A program made the translations under genes and the position numbers. DNA of 10,066 bases from Pseudomonadota bacterium (lineage in GTDB: Bacteria > Pseudomonadota > Gammaproteobacteria > Burkholderiales > Burkholderiaceae_C): NCBI GenBank assembly GCA_018241985.1, contig JAFECV010000041.1, positions 1 through 10,066 of the forward strand, given 5' to 3'. The notes under the pieces are model-generated. The model was given only the letters and a program-made list of their open reading frames with translations. It made no database searches and had not been told where the DNA came from. Positions 391 to 9,392 of the stretch are shown piece after piece (positions within the stretch are counted from its first letter, which is position 1; every line of letters begins with the position of its first letter).

Positions 391-1554
391 CTATTCGAGC
401 CGTACCGACAGGCGCGAGAAGCCGCTGGCCGGAAACAGCGCGCGCTCCGGCGCCGGGTCCGTCACCTCGGCGATCCCCTGGGTGCCCGCCAGCAGCGTCG
501 CCATCAGCACGCGCAGTTCCAGCCGCGCCAGCGGCGCGCCGGGGCAGACGTGCAGGCCCGCGCCGTACAGCAGGTTGTGGTCGCGGTTGCGCGCCGGATC
601 GTAGGCGTCGGGGTCGCCGAACCGGGCTTCGTCGCGATTCGCGGAGGCCCAGATCAGGGTCAGCCGCTCGCCCGCGGCCATCTGGTGTCCGCCGATCTCG
701 ACCGGGCAGGTCGTGATGCGGCGGTTCGCGATCAGCGGTGCATGGATGCGCAGGATCTCGTCGATCGCATCGGGCAGGTCGGCGGGCCGCCGGCGCAGCT
801 CGGCCTGCAGCAGCGGATGCGCGGCGAGGTACTGCACCAGGATGCCGACGCTCGCGGCGATCGTGCCGAGCTCGCCGACGGTCCAGTTGCGCACGATGCT
901 GACGATTTCCTCGTCGCTCAGCGGCCGGCCGTGGATGCGCTCGCGCAGCAGGCGGCTGGTCACGTCGTCGCCCGCCTGCTCGCCGGCATCGCGCCGGACG
1001 ACGAGCTGCTGCACGATGTGGTTGTCGAATTCGAGCGCGACCCGCGCCATCGCGGCGCGGTCGCCCGCGCGGATCGCGCGATGGTTGCTGGCGATCCATT
1101 CGCCGAGCGGCTCGTGCAGCGTGTCGGGCCAGCCCATGAACGCGCACTGCACGCGCAGCGCGAACGGCTGCGCGAAGCCGGCCATCAGCTCGAACGCCCG
1201 GCCGCGCGGCAGCGCCGCGACCAGCGCCTCGGCGATCGATCGGCAGACGGGCTCGAAAGCCGCCATCCGTTCGGGCGCGAAGTAGCGCTCGACGATGCGC
1301 CGGTACGGCGTGTGCTCCGGCGGGTCCATCGCGTTCGGAATCGACAGGTGATTCGACGCCGCGTTGCTGAAGGTTTCGGCGTCGCCCAGCGCGCGCATCA
1401 CGTCCGCATGACGGAACAGCGACCACCACAGGTAGTCGCTGTACGCGACCGGGCAGCGCCTGCGCATCGCGTCGTAGGCGGCGATCTGGTCGCGCTGCAC
1501 GTCATCCGATGCGGGATCCCAGTCGGCAGGTGGGGCAGACGGGATAGTGACCAT
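391..1554 (-). CDS. Cytochrome P450
   Basis: A soluble bacterial-type P450 of 387 residues, with no membrane anchor. The haem loop is YGAGLHVCPG with Cys337 as thiolate ligand. The usual leading Phe is Tyr330 and His335 is present. The K-helix ExxR is E266-ILR-R269, the meander region is near ANRDEARFGDPDAYDP (305-320), and the C-helix His/Arg pair is H81...R85. The I-helix reads GELGTIAA (227-234). Thr231 is in the usual place, but the acidic residue that normally precedes it is Gly230. The substrate is unknown; I recall similar uncharacterised P450s in Burkholderiales. No redox partner is recognisable apart from the flavoprotein-type gene directly downstream, which may share the transcript. 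No good Shine-Dalgarno precedes ATG 1554, but an FNR-like site lies about 36 bp upstream. It follows boxA on the same strand after a 145-bp gap and is probably not part of the box operon. Confidence 0.93.
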   Translation of the reverse strand: MVTIPSAPPADWDPASDDVQRDQIAAYDAMRRRCPVAYSDYLWWSLFRHADVMRALGDAETFSNAASNHLSIPNAMDPPEHTPYRRIVERYFAPERMAAFEPVCRSIAEALVAALPRGRAFELMAGFAQPFALRVQCAFMGWPDTLHEPLGEWIASNHRAIRAGDRAAMARVALEFDNHIVQQLVVRRDAGEQAGDDVTSRLLRERIHGRPLSDEEIVSIVRNWTVGELGTIAASVGILVQYLAAHPLLQAELRRRPADLPDAIDEILRIHAPLIANRRITTCPVEIGGHQMAAGERLTLIWASANRDEARFGDPDAYDPARNRDHNLLYGAGLHVCPGAPLARLELRVLMATLLAGTQGIAEVTDPAPERALFPASGFSRLSVRLE

Positions 1555-1699: not shown

Positions 1700-3028
1700 T
1701 CAATACGTCTCCAGATGCAGCCGCCCCTCGCTCTTGAGCGCGGCGGCGATCGCGTCCCACGACAGGCCGGCCTGCTGCGCGACGTCGCGCAGCGCCAGCA
1801 CCACGCCCTCCTCCATGCTTTTGAGGCCGCAGACGTAGAAGAAGGCGTTCGAGTCCTGCAGCAGCGGCGCGAGGTCCGCGGCGCGCGCGCGCATCCGGTC
1901 CTGCACGTAGGTCTTGGGCTGGCCCGGCGTGCGGCTGAACGCGAAGTTGATGTCGATGAAGTCCTTCGGCAGCGTCTGCAGCGGGCCGAAGTACGGCAGC
2001 TCCTCCTTGGTGCGCGCGCCGAAGAACAGCAGCAGCTTGCCGCCTTCGAACTTGCCGCTCTTGCGCAGGCGCCGGCGCCATTCGGTCATCGCGCGCATCG
2101 GCGCGGAGCCGGTGCCGGTGCAGATCATCACGACGTGGCTCTTCGGGTGGTTCGGCATCAGGAAGGTGGCGCCGAAGGGCCCGATCACCTGCACCTTGTC
2201 GCCGACCTTCAGGTCGCACATGTAGTTGCTGGCGACGCCGCGCACCGGGTTGCCCTGGTGGTCTTCGAGCACGCGCTTGATCGTCAGCGACAGGTTGTTG
2301 TAGCCGGGGCGCTCGCCGTTGCGCGGGCTCGCGACCGAGTACTGGCGCGCGAAATGCGGCTTGCCGCGTTCGTCGAGGCCGGGCGGCACGACGCCGATCG
2401 ACTGGCCCTCGAGCACCGGGAACGGCATCGCGCCGAAGTCGAGGATGACGTGGTGCGTGTCGTACTCCCTGCCGACCTCGGTGACGCGCACGTTGCCGAC
2501 GCAGGTGGCGGTCACGGTCTTATCGGCCGCGCGCGCGCCGTACAGGTTGGTGTAGGCATGGGCGGCGGACCAGGGCGGCAGCTTCGCGCCGTAGCTGGCC
2601 GGCGGCGTGCCGGCGCCGGGCTGCGCCGGGTCGACCGCCGCCTGCGCCAGCGCCGCCTGCGCCTGGGCCAGCGTCTTCAGCGACTCGTCGGCCACCGGCG
2701 CGTCCTGCGCGAGCGCGTCGGCGCCGACACCCATCTCGGCGAGCTGCGCCGGCGTCAGCTCCTCGGGCAGGTCGAACCAGCCGAACTGCTCCGCGAGCGG
2801 GTACGCGCTGGCCTTGGGCACCATGCGCCAGTTGTCGATCGCGCCGGTCGGGCACACCGGAATGCAGGCCAGGCACTTCTCGCAGATCGACGGATCGACG
2901 ACGTAGTTGTTCGCGTCGTGCGAGATCGCCTGGATCGGACACGCCGCCTCGCAGGCGCCGCAGCGGATGCAGATCGCGGGGTCGATCAGGTGTTGCTTGA
3001 GGAGGGTGGTGTCGGTGGCCATGTCCAT
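1700..3028 (-). CDS. boxA: Benzoyl-CoA 2,3-epoxidase, reductase component BoxA
   Basis: BoxA is the NADPH-dependent iron-sulfur flavoprotein that feeds electrons to BoxB; together they turn benzoyl-CoA, O2 and NADPH into 2,3-epoxybenzoyl-CoA in the cytoplasm. The N-terminus carries two [4Fe-4S] ferredoxin motifs, [11 protein letters not shown] (Cys20, 23, 26, 30) and [11 protein letters not shown] (Cys49, 52, 55, 59), each followed by Pro. The rest is a ferredoxin-NADP+ reductase fold. It has RQYS (228-231) for [15 protein letters not shown] (302-313) for NADP, YVCG (398-401) near the nicotinamide, and an aromatic C-terminal residue (Tyr442). An Ala/Gln-rich linker at about 100-150 joins the two parts. 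It makes the protein (442 aa) seem somewhat longer than relatives I recall at about 410-420. ATG 3028 has a purine-rich GAGAGAG upstream; ATG 3022 is an alternative. It is the last box gene on this strand, 207 bp after boxB. Confidence 0.96.
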
Positions 3029-3235: not shown

Positions 3236-4663
<1,428 letters not shown>

Positions 4664-4785: not shown

Positions 4786-6435
4786 TCAGACCCGGTTCCA
4801 GTCAAATGCGGCCTTTTCGCCCTTGCCGTAGACCTTCAGCGCGCCGCGCTCGCCGACCGCGTTCGGCCGCTGGAAGATCCAGTTCTGCCACGCGGTGAGC
4901 CGGCCGAAGATGCGGGTCAGCATGTTCTCCTGCTGCGAAAAGCGCAAGTTCGCTTCGAGGCCGGTCAGCGCGTCCGGGCTCATCGCGGCGCGCTCTTCCA
5001 GCGCGATGCGGATCTCGTCCGCCCAGTCGATCTCGTCGGGCGCGGCGGTGACGAGGCCAAGCGCGAGCGCCTCGTCCGCCGCAATCGGACGGCCGGCGGC
5101 GGCGCGCACCGCTTCCATCGGCGCGGCCTCTTCGTAGAAGCGGCGCGCGAGCCGCGACTGGTCGTTCACCATCGGCGCCAAGCCGAAGTTGAATTCGTCG
5201 AGCTGCAGCGCGGCCGCATTCTCGACGCCGCTCAGCATGTAGGCGCGGTCCGCGCAGAACGCGAGTTCGGCCAGCACGCCGGCAAAGCACGAGCCGGGCT
5301 CGATCAGCGCGAACAGGCTGCGCGACGACACGTCGAGGCGCGCCAGCGTGCGCCGCAGCATGCCGATCGTCTCGCGCACGAACCAGTGGTGCTGGTGCGC
5401 GAGCATCGCTGCGTCCGCCTGCAGCACCGCCTTGGGATCGCCGGCGGTCTTCAGCAGCCAGGTGCCGATCTCGAGTTCGTTGGTGCGCATGTGCAGGATC
5501 GCGTCGTCGAGCTCGCGCGCCATCGCGAGCGGCCACCAGCCGGCGCCGGCAGCCTCGATGCCGGCGATATCGGCGGGCTGCGCGCCGGCCGGCGCGCGCA
5601 CGGTGAAGGTCGCGAGCCGCTTCGCACGGTCGATGTCCACGGTCACGTTCGCGTAGCGCAGCTGCTCGGTCGTGACGTTGCGCTCGACCGGCGTGAGCGC
5701 GATACCGCGGGCCTGCTGCGGGCGGTCGCTGCCGGCGGCAAGCTGCGCGGCGCGCCCCTGCACCGCCTGCGCGAACTGCTGGGGCTTGGCGATCGCGTCG
5801 ACCAGGCGCCAGTCGACCGCGCGCTGGCCGCGCACGCCTTCGGTCGTGGTGCAGAAGATGTCGGCCAGGTCGTGCCGCACATGGCGCTTGTCGGTGACGC
5901 GGGTCAGCCCGCCGGTGCCGGGCAGCACGCCGAGCAGCGGCACCTCGGGCAGCGACACCGACGACGAGCGGTCGTCGACCAGGATGATCTCGTCGCAGGC
6001 CAGCGCCAGCTCGTAGCCGCCGCCGGCGCAGGCGCCGTTCAGCGCCGCGATGAACTTCAGGCCGGAATGGCGGCTCGCGTCCTCGATGCCGTTGCGCGTC
6101 TCGTTCGTGAACTTGCAGAAGTTGACCTTCCAGGCGTGGGTCGAGAGGCCCAACATGAAGATGTTGGCGCCGGAGCAGAACACCTTGTCGCGCAGCGAGG
6201 TGACGACCACGACACGCACCTGCGGGTGCTCGAAGCGGATGCGTTGCAGCGCATCGTGCAGTTCGATGTCGACGCCGAGGTCGTAGGAATTGAGCTTGAG
6301 CTTGTAGCCGGGGCGGATGCCCGCGTCCTCGTCGATGTTCAGCGACAGCGTCGCGGTCTGCCCGTCGACGGCCAGCTTCACGTGCCGGTATCGGGACGGG
6401 TCGGTCTGGTAGTTCACCAGGGGGTTCTCGGCCAT
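4786..6435 (-). CDS. boxC: 2,3-epoxybenzoyl-CoA dihydrolase (benzoyl-CoA-dihydrodiol lyase) BoxC
   Basis: BoxC hydrolytically opens 2,3-epoxybenzoyl-CoA to 3,4-dehydroadipyl-CoA semialdehyde plus formate, without oxygen. It belongs to the crotonase superfamily but at 549 residues is about twice the usual size, with a second crotonase-like half. The oxyanion-hole segments are FCSGANIFMLGL (86-97) and NGACAGGGYELALACDE (133-149). The residues I recall as catalytic in Burkholderia BoxC (Cys111, Glu146, Glu168) appear here as Cys107, Glu142 (GYELA) and Glu164 (SLPEVP), at one constant offset. The ATG at 6435 is chosen because CAGGAG lies 6 nt upstream and the protein then starts MAENPLVNYQTDP, as in relatives. 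An in-frame ATG at 6486 would add 17 unlikely residues. It is first in boxC-boxB-boxA, behind its own promoter and TGCA operator array in the gap after boxR. Confidence 0.97.
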   Translation of the reverse strand: MAENPLVNYQTDPSRYRHVKLAVDGQTATLSLNIDEDAGIRPGYKLKLNSYDLGVDIELHDALQRIRFEHPQVRVVVVTSLRDKVFCSGANIFMLGLSTHAWKVNFCKFTNETRNGIEDASRHSGLKFIAALNGACAGGGYELALACDEIILVDDRSSSVSLPEVPLLGVLPGTGGLTRVTDKRHVRHDLADIFCTTTEGVRGQRAVDWRLVDAIAKPQQFAQAVQGRAAQLAAGSDRPQQARGIALTPVERNVTTEQLRYANVTVDIDRAKRLATFTVRAPAGAQPADIAGIEAAGAGWWPLAMARELDDAILHMRTNELEIGTWLLKTAGDPKAVLQADAAMLAHQHHWFVRETIGMLRRTLARLDVSSRSLFALIEPGSCFAGVLAELAFCADRAYMLSGVENAAALQLDEFNFGLAPMVNDQSRLARRFYEEAAPMEAVRAAAGRPIAADEALALGLVTAAPDEIDWADEIRIALEERAAMSPDALTGLEANLRFSQQENMLTRIFGRLTAWQNWIFQRPNAVGERGALKVYGKGEKAAFDWNRV

Positions 6436-6479: not shown

Positions 6480-6567
6480 TGCACAAAAATGCAGAATTTG
6501 CGATTTCTCAAACGAACATATGCATCATAGTGCATTTTATTGCAGGCGTCAAATGCATTTTTTTGCA
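6480..6567 (-). promoter_or_regulatory. boxC promoter with a TGCA operator array
   Basis: Most of the 159-bp gap between the boxR stop and the boxC start is regulatory. On the minus strand the -35 is TTGACG (6552-6547), the spacer is exactly 17 bp, and the -10 is TATGAT (6529-6524), one base from consensus. The start would be near 6517, leaving a leader of about 80 nt. Seven TGCA units begin at 6480, 6490, 6521, 6531, 6541, 6554 and 6564, mostly 10 bp apart. Two lie within the spacer, one abuts the -10, two are upstream of the -35 and two are downstream of the start. TGCA repeats are the operator core known for BzdR, the close relative of BoxR, so repression by BoxR relieved by benzoyl-CoA is the natural reading. 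Confidence 0.85.
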
Positions 6568-6594
6568 TGCCATCGGTGTAGACATAACCGCAGC

Positions 6595-7554
6595 TCAGCC
6601 CTGCGCCAGCCGCGCCCGAACCTGCGCGAGCAGCTGCGTGTAGGCCTGGTCCAGCGGGCGGTTGCTGGTGTCGAAATGCATGTCGGCCTTGGAATAGAAC
6701 GCCGAGCGCCCGTCCAGGATGCGCTGCAGGTCCTTCATCGCCTCGCGGCTGGCGGCCATCGGCCGCAGGTCGCCCTGCGCCGCGACCCGCGCCATGTGGT
6801 CCGCCGGCGCGGCCTGCAGCCAGATCGTGTAGCAGTGCGCGAGCAGCAGGTTGAAGTTGGCCGCGTCCGACACCAGCCCGCCGGGCGTCGCGATCACGAC
6901 CTCGGGGTAGATCTGGATCGCCTCCTCGAGCGCGCGGCGCTCGTAGCGGCGGTATGCGTTCGCGCCGTACAGGTTGTGGATTTCGCTGATGCCGCAGCCG
7001 GCGAATTTCTCGATCTCGCGGCTCAGCTCGATGAACGAATAGCCGAGGTCTTCGGCCAGGCGCCGGCCGAGCGTCGATTTGCCGGCGCCGCGCAGCCCGA
7101 TCAGCGCGATGCGCGACAGGCGCTCGCGCTCGTTGCCGCCGGCGCCGAACAGCTCGCCCAGAGCGAGCCGCGCACGCAGCAGGTCCGGCTCGCTGCGGTG
7201 CTCCAGCAGTTCGCGGATCAGCAGCCATTCCGGCGACGAGGTGCTGACGTCGCCCAGCAGTTCGGCGAGCGAACAATGCAGCGCGCCCGCGATCTGCAGC
7301 AGCACCAGGATCGACGCATTGCCGGTGCCGTATTCGAGATTCGCCAGGTGCCGCTCCGACACGTCGGCCGCCAGCGCGACGGCCTTGCGCGTCATGCCGC
7401 GGCGCGAACGCAGCGTGCGCACCCGCTCGCCCAACGCGACCAGGAACGGATGCCGCGCCTCGTCGGCCGGCGGCTCGCCTGCCACGGGAGCCGCCGCCGT
7501 TGGCCGAACGTCGACGACTGCCGAATCGGCGCCGGAATCGGGTTCGGAACTCAT
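6595..7554 (-). CDS. boxR: BoxR/BzdR-type transcriptional repressor (XRE domain fused to shikimate-kinase-like domain)
   Basis: BoxR controls the box genes in response to benzoyl-CoA in characterised relatives. The 319-residue protein has a disordered N-terminus (1-35) and an XRE-type helix-turn-helix at about 38-101 (LGERVRTLRSRRGMTRKAVA, then SERHLANLEYGTGNASILVL). A linker (102-146) leads to a shikimate-kinase-like P-loop domain. That domain keeps the Walker A motif GLRGAGKST (153-161), YRRYERRALEE (201-211) like the kinase FR..E region, and ATPGG (222-226) like its glycine-rich loop. The shikimate-binding DxD is replaced by ELSRE (176-180), which suggests ligand sensing rather than catalysis. 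The start at 7554 has a strong TAGGAGG 8 nt upstream. It is divergent from boxD and could be read through into boxC. Its own promoter is not obvious, but TGCA sites in the divergent region suggest autoregulation. Confidence 0.95.
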   Translation of the reverse strand: MSSEPDSGADSAVVDVRPTAAAPVAGEPPADEARHPFLVALGERVRTLRSRRGMTRKAVALAADVSERHLANLEYGTGNASILVLLQIAGALHCSLAELLGDVSTSSPEWLLIRELLEHRSEPDLLRARLALGELFGAGGNERERLSRIALIGLRGAGKSTLGRRLAEDLGYSFIELSREIEKFAGCGISEIHNLYGANAYRRYERRALEEAIQIYPEVVIATPGGLVSDAANFNLLLAHCYTIWLQAAPADHMARVAAQGDLRPMAASREAMKDLQRILDGRSAFYSKADMHFDTSNRPLDQAYTQLLAQVRARLAQG

Positions 7555-7660: not shown

Positions 7661-7708
7661 TTGACATGCACTTTAGTGCATAGTATCGTTCACCAGCATG
7701 ATAGTGCA
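7661..7708 (+). promoter_or_regulatory. boxD promoter with TGCA operators
   Basis: A perfect -35 TTGACA (7661-7666) is followed by an exactly 17-bp spacer and a -10 of TATCGT (7684-7689). Transcription should start near 7696. TGCA units at 7667 and 7677, 10 bp apart, fill the spacer; a third at 7705 lies just after the start. The arrangement mirrors the boxC promoter, so a repressor bound here would block RNA polymerase. The leader to the boxD ATG is about 110 nt. The same sites may serve the divergent boxR gene, whose start codon is 113 bp from the nearest TGCA. Confidence 0.85.
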
Positions 7709-7796
7709 TTTGAGCGGGGAAGTTAAGCGGGAAGAATTCATCCTGCAACATCCTGCAATCCCGATCCCTCGTTTCCTGCAACCCCTTTCGCCGTGA
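7698..7796 (+). other. Possible 32-codon leader ORF before boxD
   Basis: An open frame runs from ATG 7698 to TGA 7794-7796, ending 12 nt before the boxD ATG. Its ATG falls almost at the predicted transcription start, so it would be leaderless; no Shine-Dalgarno is visible. Thirty-two codons without a stop is not significant here by itself. It contains all three TCCTGCAA repeats, which suggests the sequence may be kept for DNA sites instead. Confidence 0.15.
7741..7781 (+). repeat. Three TCCTGCAA repeats in the boxD leader
   Basis: TCCTGCAA occurs at 7741-7748, 7751-7758 and 7774-7781. The first two copies are exactly 10 bp apart, the same step as the TGCA units in the promoters, and each contains TGCA. 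They lie roughly 45-85 bp downstream of the predicted boxD start. They may be extra operator half-sites for BoxR or a different protein. Confidence 0.5.
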
Positions 7797-7808: not shown

Positions 7809-9392
7809 ATGACCACTGACACCCCCGCCCTGCTGCAGAACTACCTGGCCGGACGCTGGCAGGCCGGCAGCGGCCCCGGCACGCTGCTGCGCGACCCGGT
7901 GCTGGGCACCGGCCTGGCGCGGGTCAGCAGCGGCGGGCTCGACCTCGCCGAAGGCTTCGCGTTCGCGCGCGAGCAAGGCGGTCGCGCGCTGCGCGCGCTG
8001 AGCTACCGCGAGCGCGCCGCGATGCTGGCCGCGGCGGTCAAGGTGCTGCAGGCAAACCGCGACGCCTACTTCGAGATCGCGACCGCGAATTCGGGCACCA
8101 CGAACCGGGATTCCGGCGCCGACATCGACGGCGGCATCTTCACGCTCGGCTACTACGCGCGCCAGGGCGAGACGCTGGGCGACGCACGCTTCCTGCTCGA
8201 CGGCGACGCAAGCCGGCTCGGCAAGGACCCGGCGTTCCAGTCGCAGCACATCATGGTGCCGACGCACGGCGTCGCGCTGTTCATCAACGCGTTCAACTTC
8301 CCGTCCTGGGGCCTGTGGGAAAAGGCCGGGCCGGCGCTGCTGTCCGGCGTGCCGGTGATCGTCAAGCCGGCGACCGCGACCGCCTGGCTGACCCAGCGCA
8401 TGGTGCAGGACGTGGTCGACGCCGGCGTGCTGCCGGCCGGCGCGCTGTCGGTGGTGTGCGGATCGTCGAACGGGCTGCTCGATGCGCTCGAGCCGTTCGA
8501 TCTGGTCTCGTTCACCGGTTCGGCCGAGACTGCCGCGCTGATCCGCAGCCACCCTGCCGTGAGCGCGCAATCGGTGCGGGTCAACGTCGAAGCCGACAGC
8601 CTGAACGCGGCGCTGCTCGCGCCCGGCACGCGGCCGGATTCCGAGGTGTTCAAGCTGCTGGTCGGCGAGGTCGTGCGCGAGATGAGCACCAAGTCCGGCC
8701 AGCGCTGCACCGCGATCCGCCGCGTGCTGGTGCCGGCCGAGCTGTACGACGCGGCGGCCGAGGCGATCTCGGCGAAGCTCGCCACGCTCTCCGTCGGCAA
8801 CCCGCGCAACAAGGACGTGCGCATGGGCTCGCTGGTCAGCCGCGAGCAGCTGGATACGGTGCAGGCCGGCCTCGCGCGGCTGCGCGCCGAGACCGACCTG
8901 CTGCACGACGGCGCCGGCCATGCGCTGGTCGACGCGGACCCCGCGGTGGCCGCCTGCGTCGGCCCGACGCTGCTCGGCACGCGCCGCCCGCAGGACGCGC
9001 GCCTCGTGCACGAGGTCGAGGTGTTCGGCCCGGTCGCTACGCTGCTGCCCTACGCTTCGCTCGACGAGGCGCTCGCGACGATCCGCCGCGGCCAGGGCTC
9101 GCTGGTCACTTCGGTCTACAGCGACGATGCGACGTTCATCGCCGACGCGGCGCTCGAGCTCGCGTCCTCGCACGGCCGGGTCCATGCGATCTCGCCCGAC
9201 ATCGCGGCGCTCAACACCGGCCACGGCAACGTGATGCCGATGTCGCTGCACGGCGGCCCGGGCCGCGCCGGCGGCGGCGAAGAGCTGGGGGGCTTGCGCG
9301 CGCTCGGCTTCTACCACCGCCGCAGTGCGCTGCAGGCGTCCGCGGCCGCGCTCGAGCGGCTCGCCGCCGGCGGCCACCGCATTGCGGGCTGA
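7809..9392 (+). CDS. boxD: 3,4-dehydroadipyl-CoA semialdehyde dehydrogenase BoxD
   Basis: BoxD oxidises the semialdehyde released by BoxC to 3,4-dehydroadipyl-CoA with NADP+, committing the carbon to beta-oxidation-like steps. It is a 527-residue aldehyde dehydrogenase superfamily protein. The oxyanion Asn163 is in NAFNFPSW, the cofactor-binding Lys186 in VKPATA, FTGS (235-238) follows the nucleotide site, the general base Glu261 is in NVEADSLN, and the catalytic Cys300 is in KSGQRCTAIRR. The C-terminal part has EVFGPVATLLPY (404-415). These match the BoxD group known from Burkholderia. ATG 7809 has GGAG 7 nt upstream. The gene heads the plus-strand unit with the benzoate-CoA ligase 61 bp downstream, divergent from boxR. 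The open frames opposite it are GC-driven shadows. Confidence 0.96.
   Translation: MTTDTPALLQNYLAGRWQAGSGPGTLLRDPVLGTGLARVSSGGLDLAEGFAFAREQGGRALRALSYRERAAMLAAAVKVLQANRDAYFEIATANSGTTNRDSGADIDGGIFTLGYYARQGETLGDARFLLDGDASRLGKDPAFQSQHIMVPTHGVALFINAFNFPSWGLWEKAGPALLSGVPVIVKPATATAWLTQRMVQDVVDAGVLPAGALSVVCGSSNGLLDALEPFDLVSFTGSAETAALIRSHPAVSAQSVRVNVEADSLNAALLAPGTRPDSEVFKLLVGEVVREMSTKSGQRCTAIRRVLVPAELYDAAAEAISAKLATLSVGNPRNKDVRMGSLVSREQLDTVQAGLARLRAETDLLHDGAGHALVDADPAVAACVGPTLLGTRRPQDARLVHEVEVFGPVATLLPYASLDEALATIRRGQGSLVTSVYSDDATFIADAALELASSHGRVHAISPDIAALNTGHGNVMPMSLHGGPGRAGGGEELGGLRALGFYHRRSALQASAAALERLAAGGHRIAG

Follow-up and report, generated by a model that had tools for sequence, protein, structure and literature searches.

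A predicted BoxR operator of TGCA-N6-TGCA units at the boxC promoter of a Burkholderiales bacterium

Genes and features of the locus

The window analysed here is a stretch of 10,066 nucleotides that makes up one whole contig of an assembly in 820 contigs (89.86% complete), and close relatives are Comamonadaceae. The minus strand encodes a P450-like gene, boxA, boxB, boxC and boxR, and the plus strand boxD (Table 1). boxC is the leading gene of a boxC-boxB-boxA run served by the predicted boxC promoter; the cytochrome P450-like gene lies downstream of boxA on the same strand. BoxR combines an N-terminal XRE-type helix-turn-helix domain (PF01381 at 46-99) with a C-terminal shikimate-kinase-like domain (PF01202 at 155-312), the fusion that defines the BoxR/BzdR subfamily. 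The neighbourhood of boxR is also that of the subfamily; boxC, boxB, boxA and boxD flank it, all scoring above their NCBIfam cut-offs.

Table 1. Genes, predicted promoters and operator units in the window
Feature	Position	Strand	Remarks
Cytochrome P450-like gene	391-1554	-	PF00067
boxA	1700-3028	-	TIGR03224, above cut-off
boxB	3236-4663	-	TIGR03225, above cut-off
boxC	4786-6435	-	TIGR03222, 955 bits against a cut-off of 712.3; start MAENPL
Operator unit C	6480-6493		about +24 to +37 past the predicted start, as placed from the -10
Operator unit B	6521-6534		ATGCA-C-TATGAT-GCAT on the boxC strand; 6-bp spacer contains the -10 hexamer
Predicted boxC promoter	6524-6552	-	TTGACG (6552-6547), 17 bp, TATGAT (6529-6524); promoter search
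Overlapping unit	6531-6544		TGCA at 6531 with an additional TGCA at 6541, the latter between -35 and -10; missing in 5 of 5 same-genus relatives
Operator unit A	6554-6567		TGCA-N6-TGCA; abuts the boxC -35 on its upstream side; score 22.1 of a maximum of 27.1; position conserved
boxR (repressor gene)	6595-7554	-	helix-turn-helix and shikimate-kinase-like; NF006015, 441.7 bits against a cut-off of 204
Predicted boxD promoter	7661-7689	+	TTGACA-17-TATCGT; promoter search
Operator unit ATGCACTTTAGTGCAT	7667-7680		between the boxD -35 and -10; no other place in the genome is closer to the published consensus (1 mismatch)
Imperfect unit AGCA-N6-TGCA	7695-7708		nests the boxR -10 (TGCA-C-TATCAT on the minus strand); 28 bp from 7667-7680
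Predicted boxR promoter	7698-7726	-	TTAACT-17-TATCAT; promoter search
Weak unit TGCA-N6-TGCA	7744-7757		upstream of the boxR promoter; score 11.7; 49 bp from the 7695-7708 unit
boxD	7809-9392	+	NF008868, 876.9 bits against a cut-off of 444

The TGCA array before boxC

In the 162-base gap between boxR and boxC, TGCA starts at 6480, 6490, 6521, 6531, 6541, 6554 and 6564, exactly the seven positions given by an earlier sequence-only reading of this DNA. The 0.3 copies which that reading expected by chance correspond to the equal-base figure for 88 bp (88/256), whereas 5000 dinucleotide shuffles of the gap gave a mean of 2.9 copies, with seven or more in 0.44%. Four pairs of TGCA lie 10 bp apart, against a shuffle mean of 0.05, and four were reached in none of the 5000 shuffles. 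Since the expected number of copies rises when the gap's own dinucleotides are kept, the 10-bp pairing is a stronger signal than the TGCA count.

The TGCA-N6-TGCA palindrome is the published BoxR/BzdR motif, ATGCACTATAGTGCAT (PMC6449761), and occurs at the box promoters here as four exact units, overlapping or separate, before boxC and two in the boxR/boxD gap. Promoter-like sequences were found three times between 6420 and 7860, with 0.2 expected from shuffles. On the boxC strand unit B reads ATGCACTATGATGCAT, so that the -10 hexamer TATGAT forms its spacer. The units cover the -35, the -10 and the region past the predicted start, as had been claimed from the letters. Their centres are 33 bp (A-B, 3.1 turns) and 41 bp (B-C, 3.9 turns) apart. 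The seven TGCA starts span about 85 degrees of the helix at 10.5 bp per turn (R 0.88), a tightness largely due to the 10-bp steps within units. For the three non-overlapping unit centres the chance of phasing as good as this is about 0.10; the window by itself is thus no proof of phasing, and the relatives bear the argument.

Conservation of the array among relatives

BoxR was matched in at least 204 of 399 genomes of the family. A first set of 130 BoxR loci yielded 119 boxR-boxC gaps after 11 were dropped (boxC not found, or gap outside 40-450 bp), and removal of similar gaps, taken as those with at least 35% of 8-mers in common, left 102 representatives. A pooled set, enlarged by 100 further family matches, comprises 214 boxR loci, 199 of them with a boxC gap, 190 unique gaps and 152 representatives.

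The exact unit is present in 88 of the 119 gaps, which average 4.08 TGCA each; it is absent from the boxC gap of 34 of the 152 pooled representatives. The 102 representatives contain 410 TGCA against 170 in shuffles (maximum 196 among 200 shuffles) and 103 TGCA pairs at 10 bp against 1.8 (maximum 7), and each of the other 15 palindromic tetramers gives seven such pairs or fewer, CATG being highest with 7. A weight matrix, itself derived from these same gaps, finds at least one unit in 100 of the 102 at a score hardly met in boxR coding sequence.

A promoter scored above threshold in 100 of the 119 gaps; in 77 of these a TGCA has its first base exactly 5 bases ahead of the -10, and in 46 one begins 5 bases after the first base of the -10. 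Three unit positions recur across the relatives, A at the -35, B over the -10 and C past the start. Among the 152 representatives, 107 have a promoter above threshold and 45 have none; unit B lies on the -10 in 79 of the 107, and a scorable unit C is found in 35 only.

In each of the five same-genus relatives, units A and B can be aligned with those of the window, A remains paired at 10 bp and B retains paired half-sites of the TGCA or TGAA type. Unit C is also retained, with one TTCA half-site in a single relative (G176). Four of the five have 20 alignment columns fewer between B and C, which shortens the distance from 41 to 21 bp and keeps the phase; the units are fixed and the flanks drift. 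This is the conservation that the sequence-only reading had proposed to look for, and the loss of phasing in close relatives keeping boxR-boxC, which it had named as evidence against itself, was not seen in these five. The half-site at 6541 is found in none of them, and the tandem TGCA-N6-TGCA-N6-TGCA occurs in two of the 152 representatives, one being the window.

The -10 box within the operator

TGCA and the -10 are joined in one register, TGCA-N1-TATNNT, found upstream of boxR in 42 of 46 regions and before boxC in 87 of 152 gaps. Spacers of N0, N2, N3, N4 and N5 were found in none of the 46 regions at boxR and in 7, 0, 0, 4 and 8 of the 152 gaps at boxC, respectively, and replacing TGCA at N1 by any of nine other palindromic tetramers gave zero at both boxR (46) and boxC (152). 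Around the -10 of 107 boxC promoters, conservation is 99% for G at -4 and for the C at +7 that pairs with it in the palindrome; A at +1 and T at +5 are imposed by the promoter finder itself, which does not force TGCA. The third base of the half-site is C or A. The first half is TGCA in 79 and TGAA in 11 of the 107, the second half TGAA in 40 and TGCA in 37, and TGAA stands on both sides in 10; the half-site is therefore better written TGMA. In some relatives, for example L006 and L012, unit B is ATGAATTATTATTCAT, in which both half-sites are TGAA jointly and the palindrome is kept.

Spacing and helical phase

Spacings were counted in the pooled representatives from the 79 promoters, among the 107 above threshold, whose -10 carries unit B. 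Neighbours had to lie more than 15 bp from B to be counted, which dropped five A-B distances of 14 bp. The A-B spacing (n=58) is 30-34 bp in 44 cases, 39-44 bp in 13 and 22 bp in one, and the B-C spacing (n=35) is 20-25 bp in 15, 30-33 bp in 15 and 41-42 bp in five. Both thus cluster near two, three or four helical turns. On a FastTree tree of BoxR the spacing classes change at least eight times for A-B and at least five times for B-C.

A period fit alone is inflated by the dominant spacing near 32-33 bp. Weight was therefore put on the distances outside the main cluster, on the B-C spacing, which the promoter hexamer does not fix, and on the same-genus alignment. Beyond the 29-36 cluster, the remaining distances share its phase (z 3.6, n 42; z 2.8, n 30 at a stricter score), in statistics that ignore kinship beyond the removal of similar gaps. 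The relatives thus support phasing as a property of the boxC promoter.

The boxR/boxD gap

A second TGCA array, absent from the sequence-only reading, lies in the divergent boxR/boxD gap, with starts at 7667, 7677, 7705, 7744, 7754 and 7777. Its unit distances of 28 and 49 bp correspond to 2.7 and 4.7 turns. Divergent boxR/boxD gaps numbered 73 (67 unique, 46 representatives), and neighbouring units in the representatives mostly (35 of 41 cases) stand 25-28 bp apart, about 2.5 turns and so about half a turn off, with 26 bp in most relatives. Upstream of boxR in 102 first-set loci that have no nearby divergent boxD, the distance is 49-51 bp in 38 of 66 cases and 26-28 bp in 18 of 66, or 4.7-4.9 and about 2.5 turns. 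BoxR sites therefore need no common phase, and helical phasing is no general BoxR rule. The same-face arrangement put forward by the sequence-only reading is supported at boxC, where whole-turn spacing is kept across relatives, and fails at boxR/boxD.

Genome-wide search and boxC genomes without BoxR

The genome of the organism contains 32 exact TGCA-N6-TGCA places, six of them in the window, and 14 places for a reversed control pattern. Only the box cluster holds more than two exact units. It also gives the best matches to the published consensus, with one and two mismatches; one place on another contig (C377) likewise has two. No convincing further BoxR target was found among the 26 places outside the window, all but two of which are single on their contig; some targets could be missing, as the assembly is incomplete and divided among many contigs. 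The two exceptions, at 1927-1940 and 1993-2006 of contig C808, are 66 bp apart and form the only other pair on one contig. The C377 place is near ORFs resembling those of a P-type ATPase and a threonine dehydratase, and an AT-rich place on C277 precedes an mraZ-like ORF, all judged by eye. Both places are probably chance occurrences.

Genomes of the class that have boxC and lack BoxR served as a control. A search at E <= 1e-60 left 11 of 17 boxC genomes apparently BoxR-less; the family model then placed BoxR above cut-off in 12 of 16 (G114, already found, was omitted), which left four. The unit is missing in three of these and a good unit is present in the fourth, G485, so that the control is weak, small and not clean. 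Among the 13 boxC genomes with BoxR, a unit lies within 250 bp upstream of boxC in eight and is absent in four, and one has no upstream sequence. G485 (L240) is 93% complete, and BoxR above cut-off was not found in it. In the class relatives L238, L240 and L245, TGCA or TGCA/TTCA units lie upstream of distant boxC genes.

Discussion

BoxR very probably lands on the repeated TGCA boxes before boxC, which are sites of a type already described. They are assigned to BoxR because the unit equals the published motif (PMC6449761), as the sequence-only reading had also recognised for the TGCA core, and because boxR adjoins the array and belongs to the regulator family. We read the array as a predicted BoxR operator repressing boxC-boxB-boxA, with one dimer per TGCA-N6-TGCA and three sites nearly on one helix face, and give this reading a probability of about 0.85. 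From the comparison with relatives, one site appears to be built around the -10, with the others whole helical turns away. The binding of BoxR to TGCA repeats, its action as a repressor and its response to benzoyl-CoA are taken over by analogy from published BoxR/BzdR work: the BzdR helix-turn-helix domain binds the BzdR operators (PMC3602430), benzoyl-CoA is the BoxR inducer (PMC4424350), and BoxR of Azoarcus sp. CIB (Valderrama et al. 2012, as described in PMC6449761 and PMC4424350) is likewise a benzoyl-CoA-responsive box repressor that binds TGCA repeats.

In the proposed mechanism, dimer B would occupy the -10 box, which is the spacer of its own site, with dimer A at the -35 and dimer C behind the start. 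As the three sites are nearly on one face, the dimers may touch or join through a shallow DNA bend and jointly shut the promoter, from which benzoyl-CoA would release them. We infer that the phasing at boxC serves such dimer-dimer contacts, through cooperative binding or looping.

An alternative that keeps the array as a BoxR operator is that phasing is a by-product. The dimers would then act singly, without contact; the -35/-10 geometry would pin the sites, and 10-bp hops would arise by half-site slip when a third TGCA appears alongside. The half-site chain 6521/6531/6541 suits such slipping, the best-fitting periods are 9.8-10.1 bp and not 10.5, spacing has changed independently only a few times (8 and 5), and the boxR/boxD units are strongly conserved at 26 bp in spite of being out of phase. 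Unit C, however, has no promoter element to pin it, yet it is found only 20-25, 30-33 or 41-42 bp from B, with the ranges 26-29 and 34-40 bp empty in the 35 cases, and the change within the genus is a 20-bp difference in leader length with no half-site shift. On balance we consider this explanation unlikely, though it deserves to be taken seriously.

Another TGCA-reading regulator, for example a BenR/XylS-type activator, is far less probable as the user of the array. XylS/BenR boxes, TGCA-N6-GGNTA, also open with TGCA-N6 (PMC6449761, PMC6678401). Read by eye, however, neither strand of the gap has a TGCA with GGNTA six bases further on; the second half-site is TGCA or TGAA, and the adjoining regulator gene is boxR. 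An accidental origin, such as TGCA arising in an A-tract-rich promoter, can draw on the somewhat high frequency of TGCA window-wide (63 against 42 expected). It is refuted by the shuffles and by the comparison with other palindromic tetramers and contradicted by the conservation over 119 gaps and the same-genus alignment, which leave it a negligible probability.

A broader reading that joins the two arrays is offered tentatively, as somewhat less likely than not. At boxC and boxR the -10 hexamer would be the operator's own six-base spacer (TGMA-N-TATNNT-KCA, in fixed register), and promoter and operator would evolve as one element. The flanking dimers would shift by whole turns only at the catabolic promoter, and the boxR/boxD pair, about half a turn off, would form independent complexes on opposite faces. 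The nested -10, the TGAA half-site and the 26-bp spacing are not mentioned in the literature surveyed, which comprised main texts other than the primary BoxR paper, and we make no claim of novelty for them.

The predicted BoxR operators of betaproteobacteria share with the window TGCA-N6-TGCA, multiple sites and a divergent boxR-boxCBA/boxD layout (PMC6449761). Published BoxR sites hardly ever occur singly, and 3-5 DNA turns often separate them (Suvorova and Gelfand 2019, PMC6449761), in comparison with 3.1 and 3.9 turns before boxC and 2.7 and 4.7 at boxR/boxD here. The parts of the main text compared give no -10/-35 coverage, -10 nesting, TGAA half-site or 26-bp boxR/boxD spacing. For BzdR, four bound dimers and a DNA loop have been described (PMC6678401). 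Given this published multiplicity and the lack of the 6541 half-site in relatives, the suggestion of the sequence-only reading that the array is a fuller operator than described is mostly unsupported. The predicted operator is of a known kind in an ordinary system, with modest new detail, which is useful for the design of benzoyl-CoA biosensors.

A further counterpart is the BzdR-controlled PN promoter of Azoarcus, which also has several TGCA palindromes over the promoter and past the start (PMC6678401). OR1 is enough for repression at PN, and release by benzoyl-CoA needs OR2 and OR3 (PMC6678401). This three-operator layout is not found in the window: a start at about 6517 puts the OR2 and OR3 places at about 6590 and 6653, no TGCA occurs in 6568-6676, and the window's six exact units all lie elsewhere. 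Only PN has an upstream OR2 at -73, an OR3 at -136 and an FNR-type activator site (PMC6678401), whereas the three units here lie within 88 bp. The spacers described for OR1 differ too, with N15 and an imperfect palindrome that lies between -35 and -10 (PMC6678401). From the published coordinates, OR2-OR3 is 63 bp (6.0 turns) and OR1-OR2 is 72.5 bp (6.9 turns) (PMC6678401).
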